A model generated the notes under the pieces. The model was not told where the DNA came from. It searched no databases and worked only from the letters and a program-made list of their open reading frames with translations. This document shows, piece by piece, positions 4,493 to 62,380 of a stretch of 64,000 bases of DNA. A program made the position numbers and the translations under genes. Each line of letters begins with the position of its first letter. Positions within the stretch are counted from its first letter, which is position 1. This DNA comes from Tubulanus polymorphus (lineage: Eukaryota; Nemertea; Palaeonemertea; Tubulaniformes; Tubulanidae). The stretch is taken from positions 992,001 to 1,056,000 of the forward strand of contig NC_134036.1 in the NCBI RefSeq assembly GCF_964204645.1, read 5' to 3'.

Positions 4493-7856
<3,364 letters not shown>

Positions 7857-32131: not shown

Positions 32132-34314
32132 TTAAATTGGAAACGTGTTTCTAATTTCTGTGAGTTTGTAGTATTGATACGGCTGTACTGAGTCATCGGT
32201 ATCTGAAATTATGATTAATATATACATTAGATTTATAACCTGAAGCAATAGAACTAAAGGCATGTGCCCGCAAGGCCAGCTGAAGCAACACAATGCAGAG
32301 TTTGTGCCCGCAAGGCTGGCTGAAGCAACACAATGCAGAGCTTGTGCCCACAGGGCTGGCTGAAGCAACACAATGCAGAGCTTGTGCCCACAGGGCTGGC
32401 TGAAGCAACACAATGCAGAACTTGTGCCCACAGGGCTGGCTGAATCAAGCATTGGCCTGACTTATATATCAGCGCAGAATTCCATATATATCCATATTCT
32501 TAAATGGATCCAATTCAAAGGCTCTGGGGCTATTTGAAATCAAAGCTATCCTGCATGCACAACATTTCCAACGGATATGAGCAGGCCAAACTTAAGTTTC
32601 GGAATAACCTTCAGAAAAATAGGATCGGTAAAAACATTGGCCAGGCCAAAGCCGCGAGTGCTGGCCCTACAGTTACTGCTTGGATAAGTCGCCAACATAG
32701 TTACTGTCCAAACTACGACAATTTAACTGTAGTTTATTGATAACTGACCTGATGATGATGATGTGAAGTTGTTGTTCGGCAGATGAGGGAAGATTGTTTG
32801 ATTGTTATCAGCGAGCCACACGGTAGACAGCGGCTCACCCGTGTCTCTATGAGTACACGACACTTTCACCGACCATCTCATCGGCTGATAGCTGGAAAAT
32901 AAAAACAAACCGCATGAAGAACTCGGAGGAGGACAGGGCCCGGTTTCACGAAAAAGTTTAAGCCGAGATCAGTAAAGTCTGAATTGTTGTCCTCATTGAA
33001 AACATGAAGTAACCAATGGCAAGGACATCAAAAATTTGAATTAACTCTTTATGAAACTGAGCCCCGAGCGTCATCAGCTCACGCACGGAACAGACTCAAT
33101 ACGATCAGTCTTACATTGTACTCAGTATTTGCAGTAATTTTCCTTTAACCGGAATCACAAATTCATGGTTGGCGTCGAACGGATGTTTCTCGTAGTAACT
33201 CAAAATGTGCCTGCAGAGAAGGAGCGAGAGAGAGGAGAACAAGAATCAGATTTAGGTTTAAACACTCTAAATACTTAAACACCTCATCTAGACCCTGATA
33301 ATCTGTAGGAAGGAGAACAAATCAGATAAAGTTTTAACACTCTAAATGCTAAATTTAGAATCTAGTAGGAGATAAAGAAAGGGTTTTAGCATAAATTCCC
33401 TGCATTGATTATTGTTTCTAGGTTCAGGCATGGTTAAAGAGATTTCTAGTAAAATTCACTGAACACTTGAGTGGGTCAGCAGATACCTGGTAGTCAGTGT
33501 CAGGATACTATCCGGTAGACTGATGTATTGTTTAAGCATGCTGACAATCTCGACGCAATGATGCAGTTTTTCTGCTCTCGCGATGCGCTCTTCGAGATCG
33601 ACGTCTTTTTCGTCCGCCATGAAATACAACAAGTGATGATCATTCGCGAATCCATTCTCTACAACACAAATATCATAAATAGAAATTGTGAGTATTGGCG
33701 AGTAATGCAAGGGGTATGAGCAGGGTGGTGCCACTTTCCGCCCATTTACAAATACCCCGATTATTACACCAAAATTGAATGAATTGAATGAATCAGAGAT
33801 ATTTTTAAGTTTAAAATGTTACAGATTCATTTTTCATGGAATCACGTATTGATTAAGAAGGCATGGTCAATTCAATTATACAAATTCCTTGATTTCCCAG
33901 TTTCTTTGCAAAAATTGGTCAAATTACCCAGGTTTTCTTTTTCTTAATTTCTGAGTTTTCCAGGTCAATGGCAGCACCCATTATGGGTCGAGGTGGTTAT
34001 GTTAAGAGAATGGTAGGCCCTGCACAGGGCGTAGTCAGTCAGTCTGTTAAAACTCACCTATAAGAACTGTTTTATAGTCTTCACGTATTTTCAACAATCC
34101 CATCTCTAAGAGTATTTTAATCGGTTCTGGATCCGATTCCGTCAACAAGGGGGCGCTGTAGTTGTCCATCTTGATCAATTTTGCGATTGGCGTCGAATCA
34201 TTTGCGTTTAACTGCAATGAACGACAGAGATTATTAGAAAGGGGAGAGAGATTTATACAGGGGGAAAAGGGGAGGGAGAGAGGGAGTTGGGGAGGGGGAG
34301 AGTTGGACGAGAGA

Positions 34315-34413
<99 letters not shown>

Positions 34414-37400
34414 GGAAGAGGAAGTTAGAGGAAAGAGAGAGGAGAGGAATTTAGAGGAGGTGCAATCCGAGTACGCGTAAAATGTAATATGAAGAGAAGG
34501 TAAAATCAAAGTTTCATTAGAGTGGGGAGTTTTATTAGAACAAGGGAAGAGATAGAGACAGGAGATTTAGAGTAGGAGCCACCATCTACAAACTGACCAG
34601 CCATAAAGGGAGGGTAGAGTTAGAGTAGGAGCCACCATCTACAAACTGACCAGCCATAAAGGGAGGGTAGAGTTAGAGTAGGAGCCACCATCTACAAACT
34701 GACCAGCCATAAAGGGAGGGTAGAGTTAGAGTAGGAGTCACCATCTACAAACTGACCAGCCATAAAGGGAGGGCAGAGTTAGAGTAGGAGCCACCATCTA
34801 CAAACTGACCAGCCATAAAGGGAGGGTAGAGTTAGAGTAGGAGTCACCATCTACAAACTGACCAGCCATAAAGGGAGGGCAGAGTTAGAGTAGGAGCCAC
34901 CATCTACAAACTGACCAGCCATAAAGGGAGGGTAGAGTTAGAGTAGGAGCCACCATCTACAAACTGACCAGCCATAAAGGGAGGGTAGAGTTAGAGTAGG
35001 AGTCACCATCTACAAACTGACCAGCCATAAAGGGAGGGTAGAGTTAGAGTAGGAGCCACCATCTACAAACTGACCAGCCATAAAGGGAGGGTAGAGTTAG
35101 AGTAGGAGCCACCATCTACAAACTGACCAGCCATAAAGGGAGGGTAGAGTTAGAGTAGGAGCCACCATCTACAAACTGACCAGCCATAAAGGGAGGGTAG
35201 AGTTAGAGTAGGAGCCACCATCTACAAACTGACCAGCCATAAAGGGAGGGTAGAGTTAGAGTAGGAGCCACCATCTACAAACTGACCAGCCATAAAGGGA
35301 GGGCAGAGTTAGAGTAGGAGCCACCATCTACAAACTGACCAGCCATAAAGGGAGGGCAGAGTTAGAGTAGGAGCCACCACCTACAAACTGACCAGCCATA
35401 AAGGGAGGGCAGAGTTAGAGTAGGAGTCACCATCTACAAACTGACCAGCCATAAAGGGAGGGCAGAGTTAGAGTAGGAGCCACCATCTACTAACTGACCA
35501 GCCATAAAGGGAGGGTAGAGTTAGAGTAGGAGTCACCATCTACAAACTGACCAGCCATAAAGGGAGGGTAGAGTTAGAGTAGGAGCCACCACCTACAAAC
35601 TGACCAGCCATAAAGGGAGGGTAGAGTTAGAGTAGGAGTCACCATCTACAAACTGACCAGCCATAAAGGGAGGGCAGAGTTAGAGTAGGAGCCACCATCT
35701 ACAAACTGACCAGCCATAAAGGGAGGGTAGAGTTAGAGTAGGAGCCACCACCTACAAACTGACCAGCCATAAAGGGAGGGCAGAGTTAGAGTAGGAGCCA
35801 CCATCTAGTTGCCTATTTCTAGGAGGGAAATAGGGAAAGAGAGAGGGGAGTTAAAACTGTCCAGTAACAAAGAGAGAAGGGAGTTAAAACTGACCAATAA
35901 CAAAGAGAGAAGGGAGTTTAAACTGACCAATAGCAAAGAGAGAAGGGAGTTAAAACTGACCAATAACAAAGAGAGAAGGGAGTTTAAACTGACCAATAGC
36001 AAAGAGAGAAGGGAGTTAAAACTGACCAACAGCAAAGAGAGGGGAGTTAAAACTGACCAGTAACAAAGAGAGGGGGTTAAAACTGACCAGTAACAAAAAG
36101 AAGGGTGTTAAAACTGACCAATAGCAAAGAGAGAAGGGAGTTTAAACTGACCAATAGCAAAGAGAGAAGGGAGTTTAAACTGACCAATAGCAAAGAGAGA
36201 AGGGAGTTAAAACTGACCAACAGCAAAGAGAGGGGAGTTAAAACTGACCAGTAACAAAGAGAGGGGGTTAAAACTGACCAGTAACTAAGAGAAGGGCGTT
36301 AAAACTGACCAGTAACAAAGAGAGGGGGTTAAAACTGACCAGTAACAAAGAGAGGGGGTTAAAACTGACCAGTAACTAAGAGAAGGGCGTTAAAACTGAC
36401 CAGTAACAAAGAGAGGGGGTTAAAACTGACCAGTAACAAAGAGAGGGGGTTAAAACTGACCAGTAACTAAGAGAAGGGCGTTAAAACTGACCAGTAACAA
36501 AGAGAGGGAGTTAAAACTGACCAGTAACGTTAAATCTTTCGCCGATTCCGATTTCAACTCAGTGAAAATCAATTCCAAACACGAAACAAGTTCCGAAAAT
36601 GAGCAACAACCTGAAAATCATTTAGAAAAAAAACATCTCAATTCATTTCATATCCGTTAAAAAAAATCTCAGCCTAACCCCGCACGCTACCGTTACCTAG
36701 CAACAATGACCACAGTTTTTCGGTCAACGAAAATTCACGTTTTTTCAGGAATTTAAACAAACTGTTATCGGACGCAGCCTCGTTCGGATCGTCGTCGTTT
36801 TCCGTCTGCTGCTGGTCGGCGCGGTGAATTTTACTCGCCGCTCCCGACGTCGCCTCGGCAACCGATTCTATTATCCGAAAAGAAATAGAATGAAAATCGA
36901 GAATTAGATGAAGACGTGACAGCTTGAAAAGTTTGAGATATCGATATCCGTTTGGAATTTGATAATATCGAAATTTAACAACACTAGAATGTCCTGATAT
37001 TCGTCGATGAACTTTTCAGATTGAAATAATGTTTCTTCAAAAAAAAAACAACAAAAAAAAAACATTTACCTCGTAAAAGTTTTTTAATCTTCTTTAGAAG
37101 GAAGAGATCTTTAGAGTCGGTGAGTAAAAATAGTTTACGCGACTTCAAACCATCGACGGCTAACTGTGAAATATAAACACAAATTAATGATTAATCAACA
37201 CGACAATGGCCTCTTCCCAATGCAGAAATTCTTGAGTGAATCTGCAGAATCGAGAAATTTGATGGTTAGCAGTAACACTAGCCTCCCCCTCGCTGTCAAT
37301 CTCTGTCACAGAGGCCATTATGTGCAGTTACACTAACCAACATTATCTGAATTCCCGGAGTTTTTCCAGGTTAGCCAGAAATTGTGTCATTTTCCTTGAG

Positions 37401-40400
37401 TTTCAGATATGCCTCGTTAGAGGCCACCCTGCGCAGTTACACTAACCCCCACCTGTCAACCCTTGTTCCTATTTTACTAACCTTCAGATAAGTAATTTCT
37501 CTATACAGAAATCGACTGATATTTCTCTCGTCTCCCGGAACTGCCGTCACTTTCTGAAACGAGTTAAAAAAAAAAAAACGATCAGTTAAACATTCATCGC
37601 GTTGAATCATCGATTGTAAAATGTCATTTAATCGTCGTGGATACTAACAATGAAAGCGTTTGAATCGGGCGGAGGTTTCTCCATCAATTTACGACACGTT
37701 TTCCACTGAAACGATACGTTCATGTAACTAGGGCAACCGACGTTCCATTGTTGTTGTTGCGCGGGGTTCTGCTCTTCGAATGGCGGTTCATCGAATTGTG
37801 TTATAGGTGTCACCACTGCATACTCCGAGGTGCATAAAATTGACGCTTGTTTCAGCTGCGGAAAATATTTAAAACTGATTCATTTAAAATAAATATTTAA
37901 CATCTTTTTTTAATTTTGCGATGTTAGAATTTGTTAATTACGTTGTATTGGAAAATCCCACAATAGTCGAATGACTGAAATGTCAATTGAAATCTTAGGA
38001 ATATTACGGGTGACTCCTAGAAGGCTAGAACTAGAAGGTCGAAGGAAGCACCCAAAATACTTCTTATATTCAGATCGCTTAATCTTAAAGTGCTAGTGAC
38101 GTTAGTCTGCTTTTGCGTCTTTGGAACCTTGCTACAATGGGCTCGGTATCACAACTACATAGAACTTTGTCCCAAGTACCACCATTTAGTTCATTTCATA
38201 CTGAATAAACCCACTATCAGTTGTAACTACAACAACTAGTCCAGCTGACTTTACCACCACAAAGCTGCTACCCAACAATTTAAATTACTCCGCAATACAA
38301 TCCTCCATTTCTATTCTATTACTCCCACTAGGGAGCCCAAAAATCTTAATTCTATAATTCCCTTCATTTTCATTAGCAAAGTTATGACTTTCATCAGGTT
38401 GTTATCACTTAAATGACATCAGTCATGAACGGTGTTTTCACGATGTCAAAAACATCTGATAGACATATCCTCTGTTAGAAATGTAATTAGAAGAACACCT
38501 CTGTGAAAGTGCTCATCTTTTTAAAACGATTTAAATTGCGTTTTAAGCACCCTACCCAGTATAGCTACAATAGATAACTAGATCGAGAAAATGTTTAGTA
38601 CTTGTAGTCGTTGAAAGGTAGCGCTGTATATTTATAATATTGTTAATAACTTTTGTAATATCTAATAGACGCTTTTACGAAACTGAATCTTTGTAAAAAT
38701 CGATTTAAGTTACACGTTTATGGCACACGGTTTAGTGAATCTGTTTTGGTAAATCAACTCGTTTATGGACGCGGTTTAGTAAATTGATTTACAAAATCGC
38801 CACTAACTTGCTCGGCGAGCAAGTGAGTGGCGATTTAGTCAGCTAAATCCAACATGGCGTCCTCTTCGATCGCGGGCTGAAGACATCTATCGCAGACCAT
38901 CATCTATCGATAATTCGATCACCATTGACGCAAATTTTCTTTCGAATCGCGACCTTTAAATTGATTCGAATCATTTACGAAAAACGATTTCATTTACTAA
39001 ACCTTTTGTTTACCGACAGATTCGATTTTGTAAAAGCGTCTTATTGAAACGAGTTTATATTGTCTGTTTATTGTAAATATAGTATACTTTCTACAAATCT
39101 CCCTCCATACACAATAGAAATGGTTGGAATGTGATTAACAACTGAATACTAACAAGGCAAGGAAGGCCGCTGAACAACTGACCTAACGGGCAGCTTCAAT
39201 GTCATGATAGTAATGATCTTCACTTTTCTTTTCTTTAGCTCCAACTAGGGAGCCCAAAAATAAATTCTATAATAATATTAATTCTGTGGCGAGAATAAGT
39301 AAATCAGATACTTATAACATAAAATGACATCGATCAAGGCAAGGAAGGCCGCTGAACAACTGACCTAACGGGCAGCTTCAATGTCATGATAGTAATGATC
39401 TTCACTTTTCTTTTCTTTAGCTCCAACTAGGGAGCCCAAAAATAAATTCTATAATAATATTAATTCTGTGGCGAGAATAAGTAAATCAGATACTTATAAC
39501 ATAAAATGACATCGATCATGAACGGTGTTTTCACGATGATGTCTAAAATATCTGATAGACATATCGTCTGTTAGAAGTGTTATAGGAAGAACACCTCGGC
39601 GAAATAAATCATCTTTCAAAAAACGATTTAAATTGTGTTTTAAGCACCCTACCCGGTATAGCTACAATAGATAACTAGATCAAGAAATTGTTTAGTACCC
39701 GAATTCGTTGAAAGGTGGCGCTGCATATTTTCAGTGTTAAGCTAACAACTTTGACACAATTTCTAAAAACATTTTCAGCGGGTTTTTTTCTGTACGTACC
39801 GTAGTTTTGGATCTGAGGAACAATTCATCGACGATCTGTTGTAATTGTTTTTGTCGTTGATCGGGACAAGCGGTCGGTCCATCTGTAAAAAATACAATTA
39901 TCAAACACTAGCTAACTACACAACAGATCGAACCGCCGTTTGAAGCCTGCAATTTTCTGTACAAGTTCCCATAGCTACGACATCCATGCGGTGAAGCGAT
40001 CTCAACAAATTTCCACGACTTTTCCCCAATTTTTAGGTTTTTTTTAAACCAAATTCCCTGACTTTTTAAAGAAAAGAAAAATTCCCTGACTTCTTTTTAC
40101 AGGAAAAAAATGTCCCCGACTTTGTAAATCATGGAATCATGAAATTCTTTGCTTCATACTCAATCATGTCCATTCATATTTGAGAAAATAAATTCTTTCA
40201 TTATATACGGTTACAGCTAGTCGGTTGCCTTGACGACTCACCCCCCCTCCGATAACACCTACCTTCACAAGTAATATTCAAGGCGTCGACGTCAATGCGG
40301 GATGAATCCTCGTTTCGGCGCGATTTCGCGATTAAACACACCGTTTTATTCACGTCGTCACGGTTACTGAGTACGCATAGTGACGGACAGTCGTCGCATT

Positions 40401-41666
40401 GTTGTCGTCGTTCGCGAATCGTCAACATAAAACACGACAGAATACGCCTGAAAATTAAATACCGACGAAAATAAATTCCACTCGAAAGTAATCGTCCCGA
40501 ATCTCGTTCTTTCGAGAGATGGTTACCTAGCAACGTTAATATCGACCCCGCCGGTTAATACCGCGTCGTTACATTCGCTAGTTACGGAATACTGTCGATA
40601 GGGGGCGCTACGATCACCGCCTAATTCAACTAGATACTGCATTTTCAGCGGAGATCCACTGACATCGAGCTCCTGATCGGATGGACGTCGTCCGCCGATA
40701 GGTGGCGTCACTGTCGATGCAGAATTCGAGATCTTACGAGTTTTTCTAACTTTGTTGACCTGGAAATAATTCAAAGCACAAAGATGAGGATAAGGTATCC
40801 ACATGGTTCCACAGTTCAGAATTAAGTTCCACAGTTCAAGATCCAGTTCCTCACTTCAGAACCCAGAGTTCTACATTTCAAAACCCAGAGTTCCACATTT
40901 CAGAACCCAGAATTCCATAGTTCAGAACCCAGAGTTCCATAGTTCAGGACCCAGAGTTCCACAGTTCAGAACCCAGAGTTCCTCACTTCAGAACCCAGTT
41001 CCCTAGTTCAGAACCCAGAGTTCCACATTTCAGAACCCAGAATTCCATAGTTCAGAACCCAGAGTTCCACATTTCAGAACCCAGTTTTGCAGACCATTAT
41101 TTTCGTACCTGTAAGTTAGGAATCCCGTGAATGAAAATACAAGGTGTCTTAGCGTAATTTGGTAGAATTTCATTGATCACTGGTAGAGGGTACGAACAAT
41201 CAGCCGATACATAGTTCCATAATCCGTCCTGTTAACAGAAACATTCATTTCGTTGTTACAGTACTGTTTGCAGGATGACACGCACGCCTGTAACTCTTAT
41301 CTTGATTTATTTGTTTTTAGTCTATATCTCACACCTGACGATAATTTCTAGGGTGAGATCGAAACATCGTGTATTCTATAGGGCCTATATTTAGATCTTT
41401 CGAATAAGTAAATTCTTGGTTTTAGAATTCTTTTAATCTGTAGATAGTGGGTTTTTATCTTATTACTTACCCATTGGTTAACGGTATCTGCTGGTAGTGA
41501 TTTATCCTTCAGAAAACTGTCAAAAAGGGAGAAAGTGGTAGGGGGGTAAATAATTTCAACTGTTGTGAAGGAAGGATTTTTAGACCTAATAAATAAAATG
41601 GCTTCATTCTAAAACTTACTGATCGATGGTTTGTTTATAATCTGAGATTTGTTGATGTGATAACAT
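32132..41666 (-). CDS. ZWILCH: Zwilch kinetochore protein (RZZ complex)
   Basis: Sixteen exons (660 residues, human 591): 41666-41620, 41516-41471, 41228-41109, 40759-40527, 40447-40263, 39882-39800, 37855-37649, 37553-37482, 37163-37070, 36867-36697, 36610-36522, 34211-34058, 33658-33487, 33210-33115, 32891-32749 and 32202-32132. All junctions keep phase. Zwilch works with ROD and ZW10 at unattached kinetochores, recruiting dynein/Spindly and sustaining the mitotic checkpoint. Matching blocks are FLYREITYLKLAVDGLKS (human LYRELKFLLVLADGLR), TEKLWSLLLGCCSFSELVSC, IKILLEMGLLKIREDY (human MLLEIGLDKLKKDY), ARAEKLHHCVEIV, ILSYYEKHPFDANHEFVIPV and MRWSVKVSC. The N-terminus is less conserved (ILPNYAKTPCIFIHGIPNL). 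Intron 11 is packed with minisatellites that copy the exon 11 donor. Intron 6 holds segmental duplications, and intron 15 a transposase fragment. Confidence 0.93.
32245..32455. repeat. 40-bp minisatellite in last ZWILCH intron
   Basis: About 4.5 copies of a 40-bp unit containing GCTGGCTGAAGCAACACAAT. They give repeat-derived open frames on the minus strand. Confidence 0.9.
32504..32740 (+). pseudogene. Tc1/IS630-type transposase C-terminal remnant
   Basis: The frame begins MDPIQRLWGYLKSKL, resembling the NPIERLWxxLK block around the third catalytic acidic residue of Tc1/mariner/IS630 DDE transposases. The upstream domains are absent and the remnant lies inside a ZWILCH intron. Confidence 0.55.
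32936..33065. repeat. Miniature element with GGGCCCAGTTTCAC ends
   Basis: Left GGGCCCGGTTTCACGAAAAA and right TTTATGAAACTGAGCCCC are inverted. The family recurs at 44074-44186, 53655-53941, 55976-56075 and 62381-62512. Confidence 0.72.
34313..34410. repeat. (GA)n microsatellite in ZWILCH intron 11
   Basis: About 47 uninterrupted AG dinucleotides within a longer purine-rich tract (34230-34450). Confidence 0.95.
34572..35808. repeat. 53-bp minisatellite, about 23 copies, ZWILCH intron 11
   Basis: The unit is 53 bp and includes GGAGCCACCATCTACAAACT and GACCAGCCATAAAGGGAGGG. Copies differ at one or two sites (CC/TC, GGGTAG/GGGCAG). On the gene strand each unit contains CTGGTCAGTTT, the same core as the real donor of ZWILCH exon 11. 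Confidence 0.95.
35825..36530. repeat. Roughly 30-bp minisatellite made of splice-donor copies
   Basis: About two dozen units of 28-34 bp with AAACTGACCAGTAACAAAGA or variants. On the gene (minus) strand each reads TTACTGGTCAGTTTTAAC, identical at the core to the ZWILCH exon 11 donor, which is the last unit of the array (junction at 36522/36521). Confidence 0.93.
38215..39770. repeat. Duplicated segment in ZWILCH intron 6
   Basis: About 38330-38640 and 39480-39740 are diverged copies (shared ATGAACGGTGTTTTCACGAT and AAGCACCCTACCCRGTATAG). Within the second half, 39153-39334 is repeated head to tail as 39335-39516 (182-bp period), apparently without differences, so that duplication is recent. 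Confidence 0.85.
38665..39043. repeat. Inverted-repeat element with AGACGCTTTTAC ends
   Basis: The left end AGACGCTTTTACGAAACTGA and the right end CGATTTTGTAAAAGCGTCTT are complementary. The centre has the palindrome TTGCTCGGCGAGCAA. It lies between the two duplicated segments of ZWILCH intron 6. Confidence 0.78.
40803..41090. repeat. Roughly 22-bp minisatellite in ZWILCH intron 3
   Basis: About a dozen imperfect units of CAGAACCCAGAGTTCCACAT type, close to the donor side of exon 3. Confidence 0.88.
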
Positions 41667-54143: not shown

Positions 54144-57111
54144 ATGGCATCGGACATCGTCGACGAACCTTTCACCGACTTGATGGAGACGAACTCGAAG
54201 ACGTCGGCGCCACCGCTGGCGAAACCGAGAACTACGCTATCGACTCAACAGAACGGCTGGCGACAAACGTGCGAGATGGTGAAACTAGCGAGTAAATCTC
54301 AATATCAAATATCGAACAGTTTGAAACAGGTTCCGTATCAGTTTACGTTCCGTATGTCGTACGCGGAGACGTCAACTCGTTTATACCTGCTCGGCGTAGC
54401 CGATAACTCACGCGAGACGACCTTGATGTACGTCGATATACCGCCGACGACGCCCGACTCGTCCGAGCCGCTGCGTCTGTCGCCGTGGATACCGTTACTA
54501 GACGCGTTTCACGCCAAACTCGAATTGTCGAAAGAGGAACAGTTGCTGCGCGAACGAAAACGTATGAGTCACTTCGGTATTACGTCGTACGACCTTGACC
54601 TCGATAGCGGGCAGTTCGTGTTCCCGGCGTCTGCTTCGCTTTATACGTTTACAGACTGTTCCGAATTAGTGAGTTTATTGAATACGAAATTTTTCAAATT
54701 TCAAACATTTCCCGAATGATAGGCCAAAATGAAATCGATACCTTGTTTCTCCTAAGTGTCCGGGTCCGTTTTGCAGCAAAACATTTGTAATCAGTTCATG
54801 ATTTTGAAAAAAGTAATGTACAGGGTAGATAGGCGACCAGCCCGGTCAACTTTTAACAATGATAATAATCAAATATTAGCAAACGCGGTATATTTCAGGA
54901 TTTCCGGGAGCTCTTTACACAATTGAGCGTGTGAAATTTCTCCTACCAAAGTTGTAAGCCTTGATGATCTTAAACTAGTCTTAAATCTAAGCCATGACTA
55001 CGATACTACTGCCCGGCCCTACTAGCTGTATCTAAACTGTTGAAATGACTTAGTTACCGCAGTACTCAATATTTGATTGTTGTTTTTTTCAGGGGTTCAT
55101 GTCGACGAAACCGATTTTACCGACGGAGGTGAAATCTACCGAAACAAGCGGACCGAGGATGGATCCGAAACTTTGTCCCTCGATGCCGACATTGATCGCG
55201 TTCGTTAACGAAGAAGACGTCTGGGTTACGAATCATCTCACCGGACTAGAAACTAAACTCACTAACTCGGGTAAGAGTTGAAATAAATCTAATCGGACTA
55301 GAAACTTAACTCACTAACTCAGGTAAGAGTTGAAATAAATCTGATCAGATTAGAAACTAAACTCACTAACTCGGGTAAGAGTTGAAATAAATCTCACCGG
55401 ACTAGAAACTGAACTCACTAACTCAGGTAAGAGTTGAAATAAATCTCACCAGACTAGAAACTAAACTCATTAACTCGGTAAGAGTTGAAATAAATCTCAT
55501 CGGACTAGAAACTGAACTCACTAACTCAGGTAAGAGTTGAAATAAATCTCATCGGACTAAAAACTAAACTCAGTTACTCGGGTAAGAGTTGAAATAAATC
55601 TCACCGGACTAGAAGTAAGATTCCAAATTGCTTAACGTGCTTACATGAAAAGAGAGTTAAGAGTTACCCAGTGACTCTGTGAGCAGATTAGCAGCGTAGC
55701 GCCACTGACGTGATCATCAGGGAAACCGGGAATCTAAAAATTGTTCCAAAAAACCTGGAAAACTTGTGGAATTTGGATAATGCTATTGCCCACGCATTTC
55801 TTTATCAAAACGTGATTCGATGAAAAATTGACGAATTGTAACATTTTGAATCTAGAAATTTCTCTGATTCACGCAAGAAATATTGTGTAATCGCATGGAA
55901 AAATTAGAGGGATTTGTAAATGGGTTGAAAGTGGCGCCACCCTGTCGAATAAGGGTCCAATCCTCTGGACCCAGTTTCACAAAAAGGATCAAAGCCTAAA
56001 TCGATTTAAGATAAACTGAATTAATGAAGAAATTAAATCAATTTAAGAATTAAACCTTTTTGTGAAACTCGGCCCTGATCGTGTTTTGAGATTTGCGTAG
56101 AATCTGATTGAGAATTACCGGTACTGTGTATTCTATTTAACAGATGATGAAGCCGGTTTAGTCGTAAGCGCCGGTGTTCCGTCGTTCGTCGTGCAGGAAG
56201 AATTCGATCGTTATACCGGTTACTGGTGGCAACCGCCGACCGATAATACCTACAGGATACTATACGAATGCGTCGATGAAACGGATGTCATGGTGATTCA
56301 AACGATGTCATCGTCTACGAGCGCGTGTGGATTCGACGAGTATCGATATCCAAGAGCTGGTAAAACACGGTCCTTACGACCCTCGGTTCCTTAACAACTC
56401 TGAGAGCCTGTTAAACTTGAGAATACGGTCCTTACGACTTAACGGTTCCTTAAACACTGCTTCGGAAAATGCTTTCAAAGATGCTTGAAACTCCTTTAAC
56501 TTTAGCAAAAAATTAGAAGCTCTTTCAATTTTGAGAAATAGGCAATTTGAAATTATTGTCTAGCTTGAGGTTGTTGATTAAACTACGCCTAAATCTGTAA
56601 AGTTGGGATCTGGATTTGTTTTTACCCAATTATTAAGCAGTTACTGAATGAGAAACCAAATTTTGTCGTGCAAAGGATAAAAACTTAAAAAACTTTAAAA
56701 ATTAGTAATTATCTCTCTTAAAAGATGGCAGCACTTGTCAGACAACTAACGATACACCGCGTCGTGGTGTAGACGCACTATAGTGCTATTCCCGTTATTC
56801 AACACACTAGGGTGGAATTTTTAAAAATTTTCAAATTATCTCCAACACTATAGGGTATTAACTAGTCAGCTCTGAAAGGGTTAAGTCTTAGTCTTAATTT
56901 ATTTTCCGAAGGGAAAATGAATACAATTTAGCGTTGATTAATTTTCAGGCACTACGAACGCGGAAAGCGTTTTACGAATCGTCGAGTTCAATTTGAACGA
57001 AGAATCGCAGGTCGTTAACGTGATCGAGAAGAGACTCCGCGTCGAGCTGAAAACACGGTTACCTTCGATGGAATATCTAGTACGAGCCGGTTGGACTCCG
57101 GATGGAAAATA
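54144..57111 (+). CDS. DPP9: Dipeptidyl peptidase 8/9, N-terminal part only
   Basis: Coding exons are 54144-54668, 55093-55270, 56144-56359 and 56949-57111 (360 codons plus two bases), all in phase. The start is chosen at MASDIVDEPF, 17 bases after an acceptor at 54126. DPP8/DPP9 are cytosolic serine peptidases that remove Xaa-Pro dipeptides. Matches are KEEQLLRERKRMSHFGITSY (human EEELLRERKRLGVFGITSY), SGPRMDPKLCP, FVVQEEFDRYTGYWW (holding the Glu-Glu pair that binds the substrate N-terminus), YRYPRA and RAGWTPDGKY. All belong to the beta-propeller. The hydrolase domain with the catalytic Ser (GWSYGG) is absent from the remaining 6.9 kb, so it lies beyond the window or has been lost. DPP8 and DPP9 usually form one gene in invertebrates, so the symbol stands for DPP8/9. 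Confidence 0.9.
54727..54850. repeat. GATACCTTGTTTCTC-family element in DPP8/9 intron
   Basis: AAATCGATACCTTGTTTCTC followed by TTTGTAATCAGTTCATGATT and GTAGATAGGCGACCAGCCC, matching the copies near 43941 and 47098. Confidence 0.7.
55235..55617. repeat. 52-bp tandem repeat spanning exon end and donor, DPP8/9
   Basis: The exon 2 end (GACTAGAAACTAAACTCACT, AACTCGG|GTAAGAGTTG) is repeated about six more times at 52-bp intervals. GTAAGAGTTG occurs near 55271, 55323, 55375, 55427, 55478, 55530 and 55582. Confidence 0.93.
55976..56075. repeat. GGGCCCAGTTTCAC-family element in DPP8/9 intron
   Basis: GACCCAGTTTCACAAAAAGG and CCTTTTTGTGAAACTCGGCC ends; the interior ATCGATTTAAGATAA matches the copy at 44074-44186. 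Confidence 0.75.
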
Positions 57112-57560
57112 GTGAGTACGACGGCCCGATACTAATCGGGGAACCCCCTGGAACGAGCTGCCTGAATTCTGGATACAGTGCCCCGATACTAATCGGGGAA
57201 CCCCCTGGTACGAGCTGCTTGAATTCTGGATACAGTGCCCCGATACTAATCGGGGAACCCCCTGGTACGAGCTGCTTGAATTCTGGATACAGTGCCCCGA
57301 TACTAATCGGGGGACCCCCTGGAACGAGCTGCTTGAATTCTGGATACAGTTCCCCGATACTAATCGGGGAACCCCCTGGTATGAGCTGCTTGAATTCTGG
57401 ATACAGTGCCCCGATACTAATCGGGGAACCCCCTGGTACGAGCTGCTTGAATTCTGGATACAGTGCCCCGATACTAATCGGGGAACCCCCTGGTACAAGC
57501 TGCTTGAATTCTGGATACAGTGCCCCGGTATTAATTGGGGGCCCTGGTACGAGCGGGTTG
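57084..57560. repeat. 57-bp minisatellite at the DPP8/9 exon 4 donor
   Basis: About eight units of 57 bp with GGTACGAGCTGCTTGAATTC and CCCGATACTAATCGGGG, the latter a perfect hairpin. The first, diverged unit is the exon end (TACGAGCCGGTTGGACTCCG) with its donor. 57 is a multiple of three, so long open frames on both strands are produced by the repeat. Confidence 0.92.
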
Positions 57561-59097: not shown

Positions 59098-60913
59098 GTA
59101 AGTATATATAGTTTGATAGCGTGTGATAGGAATATGGGTTACTCCCACGGTATGTTTCTATTTTCATCCTTAGTAAGCCTATTGAAGGCTCTCAAAAATA
59201 ACAGGAATAATTCTCTCTCGTGATTGTGAGAATTTTCAGTTTTTACGGACAGATTTACTGAAAGGAATATAATTAATACATAAGAATGGTGTTTATTTTA
59301 GTCGGTGTTCATTGTGGTTTGACACGTATCTGACTACAATTGTCCGATATCAATTTAATACGTTTTAATTGATAGCAAATCCTGTTTAGACACCAATTTT
59401 AGAAGACGTTTTTCATTGTTTTAAGATATTTTGCGATCAACAGGTGTAAAGGGTGTTTCAGCAATTGGTGCAGTGCCGCTGTCGATCACCAGATGTCTCC
59501 ATATGTGTCTTTTCCGTATCAACTTTCCACTGAGGGAATGAAATGCGATACCAGCTGTTGTCAATAGCTGTTGCACAATAGAGTTTCACATATTTCGTTT
59601 AAATTCTGTTGTTTTTCTATTGACTACACTCATTCACCCGATGAAGCTTCTACACATTAATAGCGAAAGCTTGCGCGTCAAATAGATATTTAACCTATAG
59701 ATAGTACTACTCATCTCATTTATTCTAAACTCGGTTAACACCAGGCTACTCTACAAAAATTCAATTTAATTCATTTGTAATTGTGCTGGAGTGGTGACAC
59801 TTGTGTTTGACTGGTATTCACTGGGGTTCTCACATATAACTGACTAGAATTCATCGATATCAATTTCAAACATTTAAACGGTGCCCAAATTCCAGTTTAG
59901 TCGCCAATTTCAGAAGATGTTTCAATTTCTTTTTAGAGATTTTGCAGTTAACACCTACAAAGGATGTGACAGAGATTGCTGTAGTATTATTACTTGCCAC
60001 CAGATGTCTCTTTGTGTCATTTCTTTAATGTTTGACAAACTGATTATTGGGAGCTCCCAAAATGGAAGTCAAATGAATAGAACGAATCATTTAATGTTAA
60101 ACAGTTGTCTAGAATTTATAGTAAAAAAGTTAGTCATATATTAAGGTGAATCCTCCCTTGGCAGGGATTCGAACCTCAATACCGGGGGCACCCCCTGGTA
60201 CCCTGAATAGGAAGTTTGGTGCCTGAGTATACATCGAGGAGCCTTATTGTACTGAGATGCTAGTCAGTGTAGTTCGATAGTATGTGACGGGTATTAGAGT
60301 TGCGTGTTCAGCATGGTTCTTTGTATAGCCTTAATCAGCCTTTTGAAGGCCCTCAAAAATTGTGAAAAAAATTTTTGTCTTTGAGTTTACAGGCAGTTAC
60401 GTTGGAAGGAATATTATTTATACATAAAATGGTGTTTATTTTTGTCGGTGTTCACCGGGGTTTGACACATATCCGACTAGAATTGTCTGATTTCAATTTG
60501 ATATGTATGAATTGATATCATATCCTGTTTAGACACCAATTTTAGAAGATGCTTTCCATTGTTTTTAGATATTTTGCGATAAACAGGTGTAAAGGGTGTT
60601 TCAGCAATTGGTGCAGTACCGCTGATCACCAGATGTCTCCACGTCTCTTTTTTCCATATCAATTTTCCACCGAGGGACAGCTCATTAAAAAATCAAATGC
60701 GATACCGACTGTTATCAATGACTGAGACAGAGGGTATTTCAGAGGTTATTTTCTAAGGGGTTTCACATATTTCGTTTAAATTCTCAGTAGCATAGAACTT
60801 AGTCACTCTGCCTATATAGCCTGTAGATACTGTTGTTTTTCTATTGACTTCACTCATTCACCCGATGAAGTTTCTATACATTAGTAGCGAAAGCTTGTGC
60901 GTCAAATAGATAG

Positions 60914-61990
60914 TTAACCTATAGATAGTACTACTCATCTCATCCATTCTAAACCCGGTTAACCTATAGATAGTACTACTCATCTAATTCATTCTAAACC
61001 CGGTTAACCTATAGATAGTACTACTCATCTCATCCATTCTAAACCCGGTTAACCTATAGATAGTACTACTCATCTCATCCATTCTAAACCCGGTTAACCT
61101 ATAGATAGTACTACTCATCTCATTTATTCTAAACCCGGTTAACCTATAGATAGTACTACTCATCTCATCCATTCTAAACCCGGTTAACCTATAGATAGTA
61201 CTACTCATCTAATTCATTCTAAACCCGGTTAACCTATAGATAGTACTACTCATCTCATTCATTCTAAACCCGGTTAACCTATAGATAGTACTACTCATCT
61301 AATTCATTCTAAACCCGGTTAACCTATAGATAGTACTACTCATCTCATCCATTCTAAACCCGGTTAACCTATAGATAGTACTACTCATCTCATCCATTCT
61401 AAACCCGGTTAACCTATAGATAGTACTACTCATCTCATTTATTCTAAACCCGGTTAACCTATAGATAGTACTACTCATCTCATCCATTCTAAACCCGGTT
61501 AACCTATAGATAGTACTACTCATCTCATTCATTCTAAACCCGGTTAACCTATAAATAGTACTACTCATCTCATTCATTCTAAACCCGGTTAACCTATAGA
61601 TAGTACTACTCATCTCATTCATTCTAAACCCGGTTAACCTATAGATAGTACTACTCATCTCATTCATTCTAAACCCGGTTAACCTATAGATAGTACTACT
61701 CATCTCATTCATTCTAAACCCGGTTAACCTATAGATAGTACTACTCATCTCATTCATTCTAAACCCGGTTAACCTATAGATAGTACTACTTATTCATTCT
61801 AAACCCTGTTAACCTATAGATAGTACTACTCATCTCATTCATTCTAAACCCGGTTAACCTATAAATAGTACTACTCATCTAGTTCATTCTAAACCCGGTT
61901 AACCTATAGATAGTACTACTCATCTCATTCATTCTAAACCCGGTTAACCTATAGATAGTACTACTCATCTCATTCATTCTAAACGCGGTT
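60914..61990. repeat. 45-bp satellite array, about 24 copies
   Basis: The unit begins TTAACCTATAGATAGTACTA and continues CTCATCTCATTCATTCTAAA, CCCGG. Copies vary mainly at CATCC/CATTC/AATTC/CATTT. The unit is a piece of the element tail found once at 59690-59740 (with TTAACAC) and in diverged form at 31690-31770. Minus-strand open frames of 15-residue repeats are by-products. Confidence 0.95.
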
Positions 61991-62380
61991 AACCCCCAGG
62001 CTACTGTACGAGTCTTAGGATAGAACTGTACAGTTCACGGAAACCAACATCGGAGTCAAACTAAATGATAAAGCGACTTAATGAATGGGTATTCCACAAA
62101 TCTGTAATTGTAATGGCGATTTTCAGGAAATGTATTTCAGTTCCTCTCTATAGATATTATGTTTTTGTAGATATTAGTTTAGAGTACCCTCCCCGCGGCA
62201 GAGACGGAGGTTTATTTCCAATGAAGAAATATTTTTAAATTGATAAAAGACTTAGCATTTATGAATAAATGTAGCGGTATTTGGGCTGGTGTTTTTTGGG
62301 GGTTTCACATATATCTGAGTTGAATTTTCTGAGGTCAGCTGAATACAGAACTGGGAGCTGACCGGTGAGGTCACTCATGG

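Follow-up and report, generated by a model that had tools for sequence, protein, structure and literature searches.

One intron of the ZWILCH gene of Tubulanus polymorphus opens with a long run of copies of a splice donor. This feature is probably a boundary-spanning minisatellite of the kind described in amphioxus as a "mirage", in which the working exon-intron junction lies in the first unit and the further units therefore carry donor copies. The analysed window (the whole stretch of 64,000 nucleotides, which is part of a 268 Mb genome in 77 contigs) also contains a DPP8/9-like gene with two boundary arrays of its own. The features of both genes are collected in Table 1, in which, as in the text, a slash marks the exon-intron boundary or its equivalent in a repeat unit.

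ZWILCH was identified on the minus strand (Pfam PF09817, E 3e-33; human ZWILCH 7qpg, E 4e-32), and its spliced model of 496 residues, which is without the first exons, was assembled from frames reading through. The 3' end of the exon at 36610-36522 reads AACGTTACTG/GTCAGTTTTAAC, giving the junction TTACTG/GTCAGT; the intron has a length of 2310 bp and ends with the acceptor G at position 34212, and both sides of the joint are in phase 0. When donor 1 is used, the protein aligns with human ZWILCH without gaps for 7 residues before the joint and about 16 after it, in an alignment that has few identities at the joint and a 3-residue gap just before the gapless stretch.

Table 1. Exons, splice sites and repeat arrays of the ZWILCH and DPP8/9-like genes in the window
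Feature	Position	Strand	Basis or remark
ZWILCH exon upstream of array	36522..36610	-	ends TTACTG; phase and homology to human ZWILCH
Donor GTCAGT, core copy 1	36516..36521	-	protein alignment over junction; open frame for donors 1 and 2 only of 45
Array 1, 22 units of 30-33 bp	35836..36528	-	GTCAGT in 21, GACAGT in 1; starts 7 nt inside exon
Array 2, 53-bp unit x 23.5	34563..35807	-	23 copies of CTG/GTCAGTT; related to array 1
(CT)50 tract, upstream of acceptor	34309..34410	-	Tandem Repeats Finder, GA x 50.5 on +
Next ZWILCH exon, acceptor TCATTGCAG/TTAAACG	34058..34211	-	homology to human ZWILCH
DPP8/9 exon ending AACTCGG/GTAAGAG	55093..55270	+	human DPP9 alignment
Boundary array, 52-bp unit x 7.3, 7 donors	55235..55614	+	last 36 nt of exon and first 16 nt of intron
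DPP8/9 exon ending GGAAAATA/GTGAGT	56949..57111	+	edges by eye
Boundary array, 57-bp unit x 7.6	57125..57554	+	diverged copies of exon end; donor context decayed

Tandem Repeats Finder reports array 1 as a period of 33 with 22 copies, or alternatively as higher-order periods of 61 and 191. Its 22 cores follow one another at 30, 31 or 33 bp and comprise 12 CTG/GTCAGT, 9 TTG/GTCAGT and 1 CTG/GACAGT. An earlier note on this DNA had described about two dozen donor copies in some 700 bases of tandem units of 28-34 bp, all with the same core; the number of copies and the extent agree with our counts, the tandem units were found with the narrower limits of 30-33 bp, and the identity of the core extends to 21 of the 22 units. 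Array 2, which was absent from that note, is the neighbour of array 1, and together they make up 84% of the intron and carry 45 cores, of which 35 read CTG/GTCAGT, 9 read TTG/GTCAGT and 1 is without its GT. The donor core, whose lack had been named beforehand as a possible refutation, keeps its GT in 44 of 45 copies. Aligned over 25 bp, units from array 1 and array 2 score 30, which none of 500 shuffles reached (shuffle maximum 26), and this speaks for a common origin. The repeat matches the ZWILCH junction from -7 to +8, and array 2 carries CTG/GTCAGTTT, whose similarity to the junction was matched by 3 of 500 shuffles.

In order to compare the donors, we scored them with a human-type frequency table, not with MaxEnt. 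On this scale, none of the 170 GT in the exon and intron (174 when counted through the next exon) scores above CTG/GTCAGT, which is weak (2.39 vs 8.63 for the consensus) and is tied in 35 copies, while the nine TTG/GTCAGT copies score 0.77; the many competing donors that had been foreseen are therefore 35 equal top-scoring ones. The reading frame remains open through the next exon for only the first donor (extension 0) and the second, which is identical to the first and extends the exon by 30 nt, inserting the ten residues VSFNSLSLLL in frame. Backed by the homology over the joint and by the frame, the exon is taken to be real and donor 1 is most likely the working donor, in line with the first unit having been taken as the true one.

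Donor 1 is also the sole core with an exon in front of it. Over -40 to -8 its purine fraction is 0.64, whereas the remaining 21 copies in array 1 average 0.27 and those in array 2 average 0.24. The words TCTT, TTCT and CTCTCT are absent from the 89-nt exon but number 53 across 686 nt of array 1. Between equal donors in cis, the intron-proximal one tends to win when SR proteins dominate, so if the cell relies on the core farthest towards the exon among the 45, something would have to favour it actively. One such reason may be exon definition, in which the first copy would be chosen as the only one that terminates a short exon whose end is rich in purines. The inner copies, lying in pyrimidine-rich surroundings similar to PTB sites, would be silenced, and the pyrimidine words of array 1 might be bound by PTB-like proteins. 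Splicing at any inner copy except the second would lead to frameshifts or stops. Slippage or unequal exchange would account for the growth and turnover of the array itself.

The unit can be read as an acceptor too, since its GTCAG comes after a pyrimidine tract, often with a branch-like YTNAY. A simple acceptor filter was passed by 39 of the 76 AG in the ZWILCH intron, 36 of which belong to array cores (n = 44 such cores), a proportion that is descriptive only as the filter was set after the unit had been seen. The real acceptor passes this filter as well, with values similar to those of the array cores.

The DPP8/9-like gene in the same window (human DPP9 match, E 2e-45) has its two arrays about 19 and 21 kb from the ZWILCH array. 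The first repeats 36 nt of coding sequence with GTAAGAG seven times; the later units match the exon over 34 nt, which none of 500 shuffles equalled, and the repeated coding part holds TGLETKLT, aligned with TGEERRLT of human DPP9 (5 of 8 identical). Because this repeated part aligns with human DPP9, the exon came first and the repeat second, and it is clear that the first array grew from the boundary. The second array begins at +14 of its intron, and its 27-nt match to the exon end was equalled in none of 500 shuffles, though narrowly so (24 vs 22), the exon stretch in this test including one intron base; at the far end of the array, 18 of 19 exon bases appear again (positions 57080 and 57547). 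The suggestion in the earlier note that a minisatellite had grown from an exon-intron boundary is thus borne out in this gene, whereas for ZWILCH, where it had been made, the exon alone (-60 to -1) is not significantly similar to the later units (153 of 500 shuffles did as well), the shared part being only the 7 nt GTTACTG.

With the same human-type table, the real DPP8/9 donor CGG/GTAAGA of the first array scores 4.91, and its six decoys score 7.01 (three copies of CAG/GTAAGA), 4.91 (two) and 3.18 (one); the three top decoys have an exon flank nearly the same as that of the real site, with 32 to 34 of 36 nt. Here the exonic flank is part of each unit, so the choice should depend on position or on what lies beyond -36, and not on the local context or the strength of the donor. 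Read-through past donor 1 gives TNSGKS and then a stop. About 14 kb separates the parts of ZWILCH and DPP8/9 that were seen (32725-57554); in human, ZWILCH and DPP8 likewise lie near each other, on chromosome 15.

We file the ZWILCH and DPP8/9 arrays with the mirages, which excerpts of PMC3087553 and PMC3902484 describe in cephalochordates as tandem repeats over exon-intron boundaries that leave regular splicing undisturbed, with Adh3, troponin C, the globins BflGb6 and BflGb9, and PGBD5 as examples. As in those excerpts, the repeats are minisatellite-like, include the boundary and carry AG/GT signals in many units. All four arrays have units of minisatellite size; the boundary is spanned by the first units of the ZWILCH array and of the first DPP8/9 array, and the second DPP8/9 array copies the exon end. 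Copied exon is found in both DPP8/9 arrays by the shuffle tests given above (narrowly in the second), while in ZWILCH the exonic part shared by the units is the 7 nt, which by themselves are not significant. Protein alignments with human ZWILCH and DPP9 lend indirect support to regular splicing in spite of the copies. What sets ZWILCH apart from the amphioxus cases is that two related arrays together hold 45 donor cores, with only 7 nt of exon per unit, and that the GTCAG can also be read as an acceptor, given the pyrimidine tract before it. Among the matches listed in the open-access literature searched, no minisatellite at a boundary had a comparable number of donors.

Other known systems resemble single aspects of the ZWILCH intron. 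In the repeat-expansion introns of Cryptococcus CNN00420 and in human variable internal tandem repeats, expansion around splice signals likewise alters intron structure, but according to excerpts of PMC2395259 and PMC2812944 the outcome there is the gain of a new intron, whereas the ZWILCH repeats sit in an intron that was already present, and the exon boundary is retained. Selection between neighbouring donors is shared with DOK7 intron 4, where an excerpt of PMC5585400 reports competing tandem 5' splice sites, namely two unlike sites 11 nt apart, in contrast to the 35 identical donors of ZWILCH; the same excerpt has SRSF1 activating intron-proximal and hnRNP A1 intron-distal donors. An intronic minisatellite is also on record for abalone, with no position relative to a boundary stated in the excerpt of PMC6905558.

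The ZWILCH donor could instead have been born from the repeat, which we hold to be possible but doubtful: a minisatellite with the core TGGTCAGTTT would have arisen within the intron and expanded to the exon edge, where its outermost unit became the donor and replaced the ancestral donor with the last two codons. The core CTGGTCAGTTT is also present in unrelated arrays, and because of this recurrence the ZWILCH locus by itself is compatible with either direction; the array, instead of being seeded from the donor, may have supplied it. The exact sequence CTGGTCAGTTTNAMC has at least two copies at four places, which are the ZWILCH array (12), an array at 242 kb on contig 2 (C2; 12), a NALCN-like intron (7) and a PLC intron (2), and it has 43 matches altogether, 10 of them single, against 12 for the reversed control, which is given as a total with its clustering unlisted. 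The 17-mer TACTGGTCAGTTTNAAC occurs in the ZWILCH array (12) and the NALCN-like array (7) only, with 1 match in the reversed control. A looser core search returned 427 matches vs 277 in the control, and among the matches listed it added one more array, on contig 1, in which no exon was recognised. Only for the exact 17-mer, with its two places, could a dispersed element be rejected as the source.

The NALCN-like gene (L002, contig C2, 31.62 Mb; E 2e-20 to a solved channel) has its array directly after the homology-supported donor AAG/GTCAGT, and this intron consists mostly of 31-bp units with two GTCAGT each. In the PLC gene (L050, contig C1, 1.484 Mb; Pfam PI-PLC-X, and of beta type by our reading), the donor is GTAAGT and the array starts about 25 nt after it, and no coding exon was recognised at the 12 core copies of the 242-kb array. 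These two cases count against growth from the boundary in ZWILCH, and the recurrence of the core at the four places favours a repeat-born donor, as do the weakness of CTG/GTCAGT on the human-type table and the exonic LL at the end of the ZWILCH exon, which stands opposite PW of human ZWILCH. However, the human alignment puts the joint at the same position, with the 7 residues before it gapless, as for a donor that has not moved, and the opposite direction is seen in DPP8/9. The boundary-spanning minisatellite with a functional first unit, for which the NALCN-like array with its start at the donor also speaks, is the reading that we prefer. An extension of the repeat-born origin seems to us unlikely, namely that the recurrent core is a portable splice site, that arrays built on it reach exon edges and donate a working donor to ZWILCH and NALCN, and that the identical donors, present by the dozen and in many cases overlapping a site that resembles an acceptor, are kept as a reserve from which slippage can renew the junction.

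It is quite improbable, in our estimate, that an ordinary intronic minisatellite merely came to lie with its edge at the ZWILCH donor by chance and that its inner copies are inert. The window is rich in minisatellites: 33 arrays pass a size filter in 264 kb, 17 of them in the 64-kb window and 16 in a 200-kb sample of contig 2 (the filter omits the array at 55235-55614, whose best-scoring row is 1.8 copies of a 207-bp period). Four other window arrays start about 9 to 70 nt past donors, and exon similarity is absent in them (403, 103, 342 and 431 of 500 shuffles). Against chance stand the match of the repeat to the ZWILCH junction, the sharing of CTG/GTCAGTTT by array 2 and the relation between the two arrays, the same pattern in the NALCN-like intron, and the copied coding sequence in the two DPP8/9 arrays. 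Very improbable, finally, is a functional alternative-splicing device, in which unit 2 would add its ten residues in frame and nonsense transcripts from the other units would tune the ZWILCH level, for although donor 2 has the same sequence as donor 1 and its frame reads through the next exon without a stop, and although the GT is kept in nearly all cores, arrays of this kind are expected to differ in copy number.

Several further arrays were recorded. We did not retain the idea of a general 5' bias among the window's intronic minisatellites, as the four donor-near arrays are without exon similarity and an array in a DnaJ-like gene adjoins an acceptor instead. By eye and without gene annotation, the 20 arrays of the 200-kb contig 2 sample included no evident boundary case. 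Within a ZWILCH intron, a 182-bp stretch at 39153-39518 is tandemly duplicated, and the duplication is probably very recent because the copies match at 100%. In an upstream ZWILCH intron, a 22-bp x 13 array at 40806-41084 starts about 24 nt past the donor, and a related motif (ACCCAGTTCCACAGTTCAGG) is found in tandem at L008:4257-4326. Two introns of a gene that looks serine-protease-like by eye are mostly minisatellite (5921-6330 and 6771-7222), the array at 5921-6330 starting about 9 nt past its donor without exon similarity, and at 60913-61994 there is a 45-bp x 24 array with 96% matches. Outside the window, the PLC intron is filled by an irregular array with units containing TGGTCAGTTTGAAC and TGGTCAGCTGA, and in the gene-like locus L003 an array whose unit contains GGTGAGTTAAAC on the antisense strand starts about 7 nt after the donor CAG/GTACGT and extends nearly to the acceptor.

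Donor choice among equal neighbours has mostly been studied with a few artificial copies. With 35 identical top-scoring donors in one intron, ZWILCH offers a natural test case for this choice, and DPP8/9, where three decoys with a nearly identical exon flank outscore the real donor, offers a second; both are short enough for minigenes. The most useful part is the contrast between them, as exon definition together with silenced inner copies fits ZWILCH but is insufficient in DPP8/9. Beyond donor choice, the arrays of the two genes are relevant to the lengthening of introns and to the origin of splice sites from repeats.
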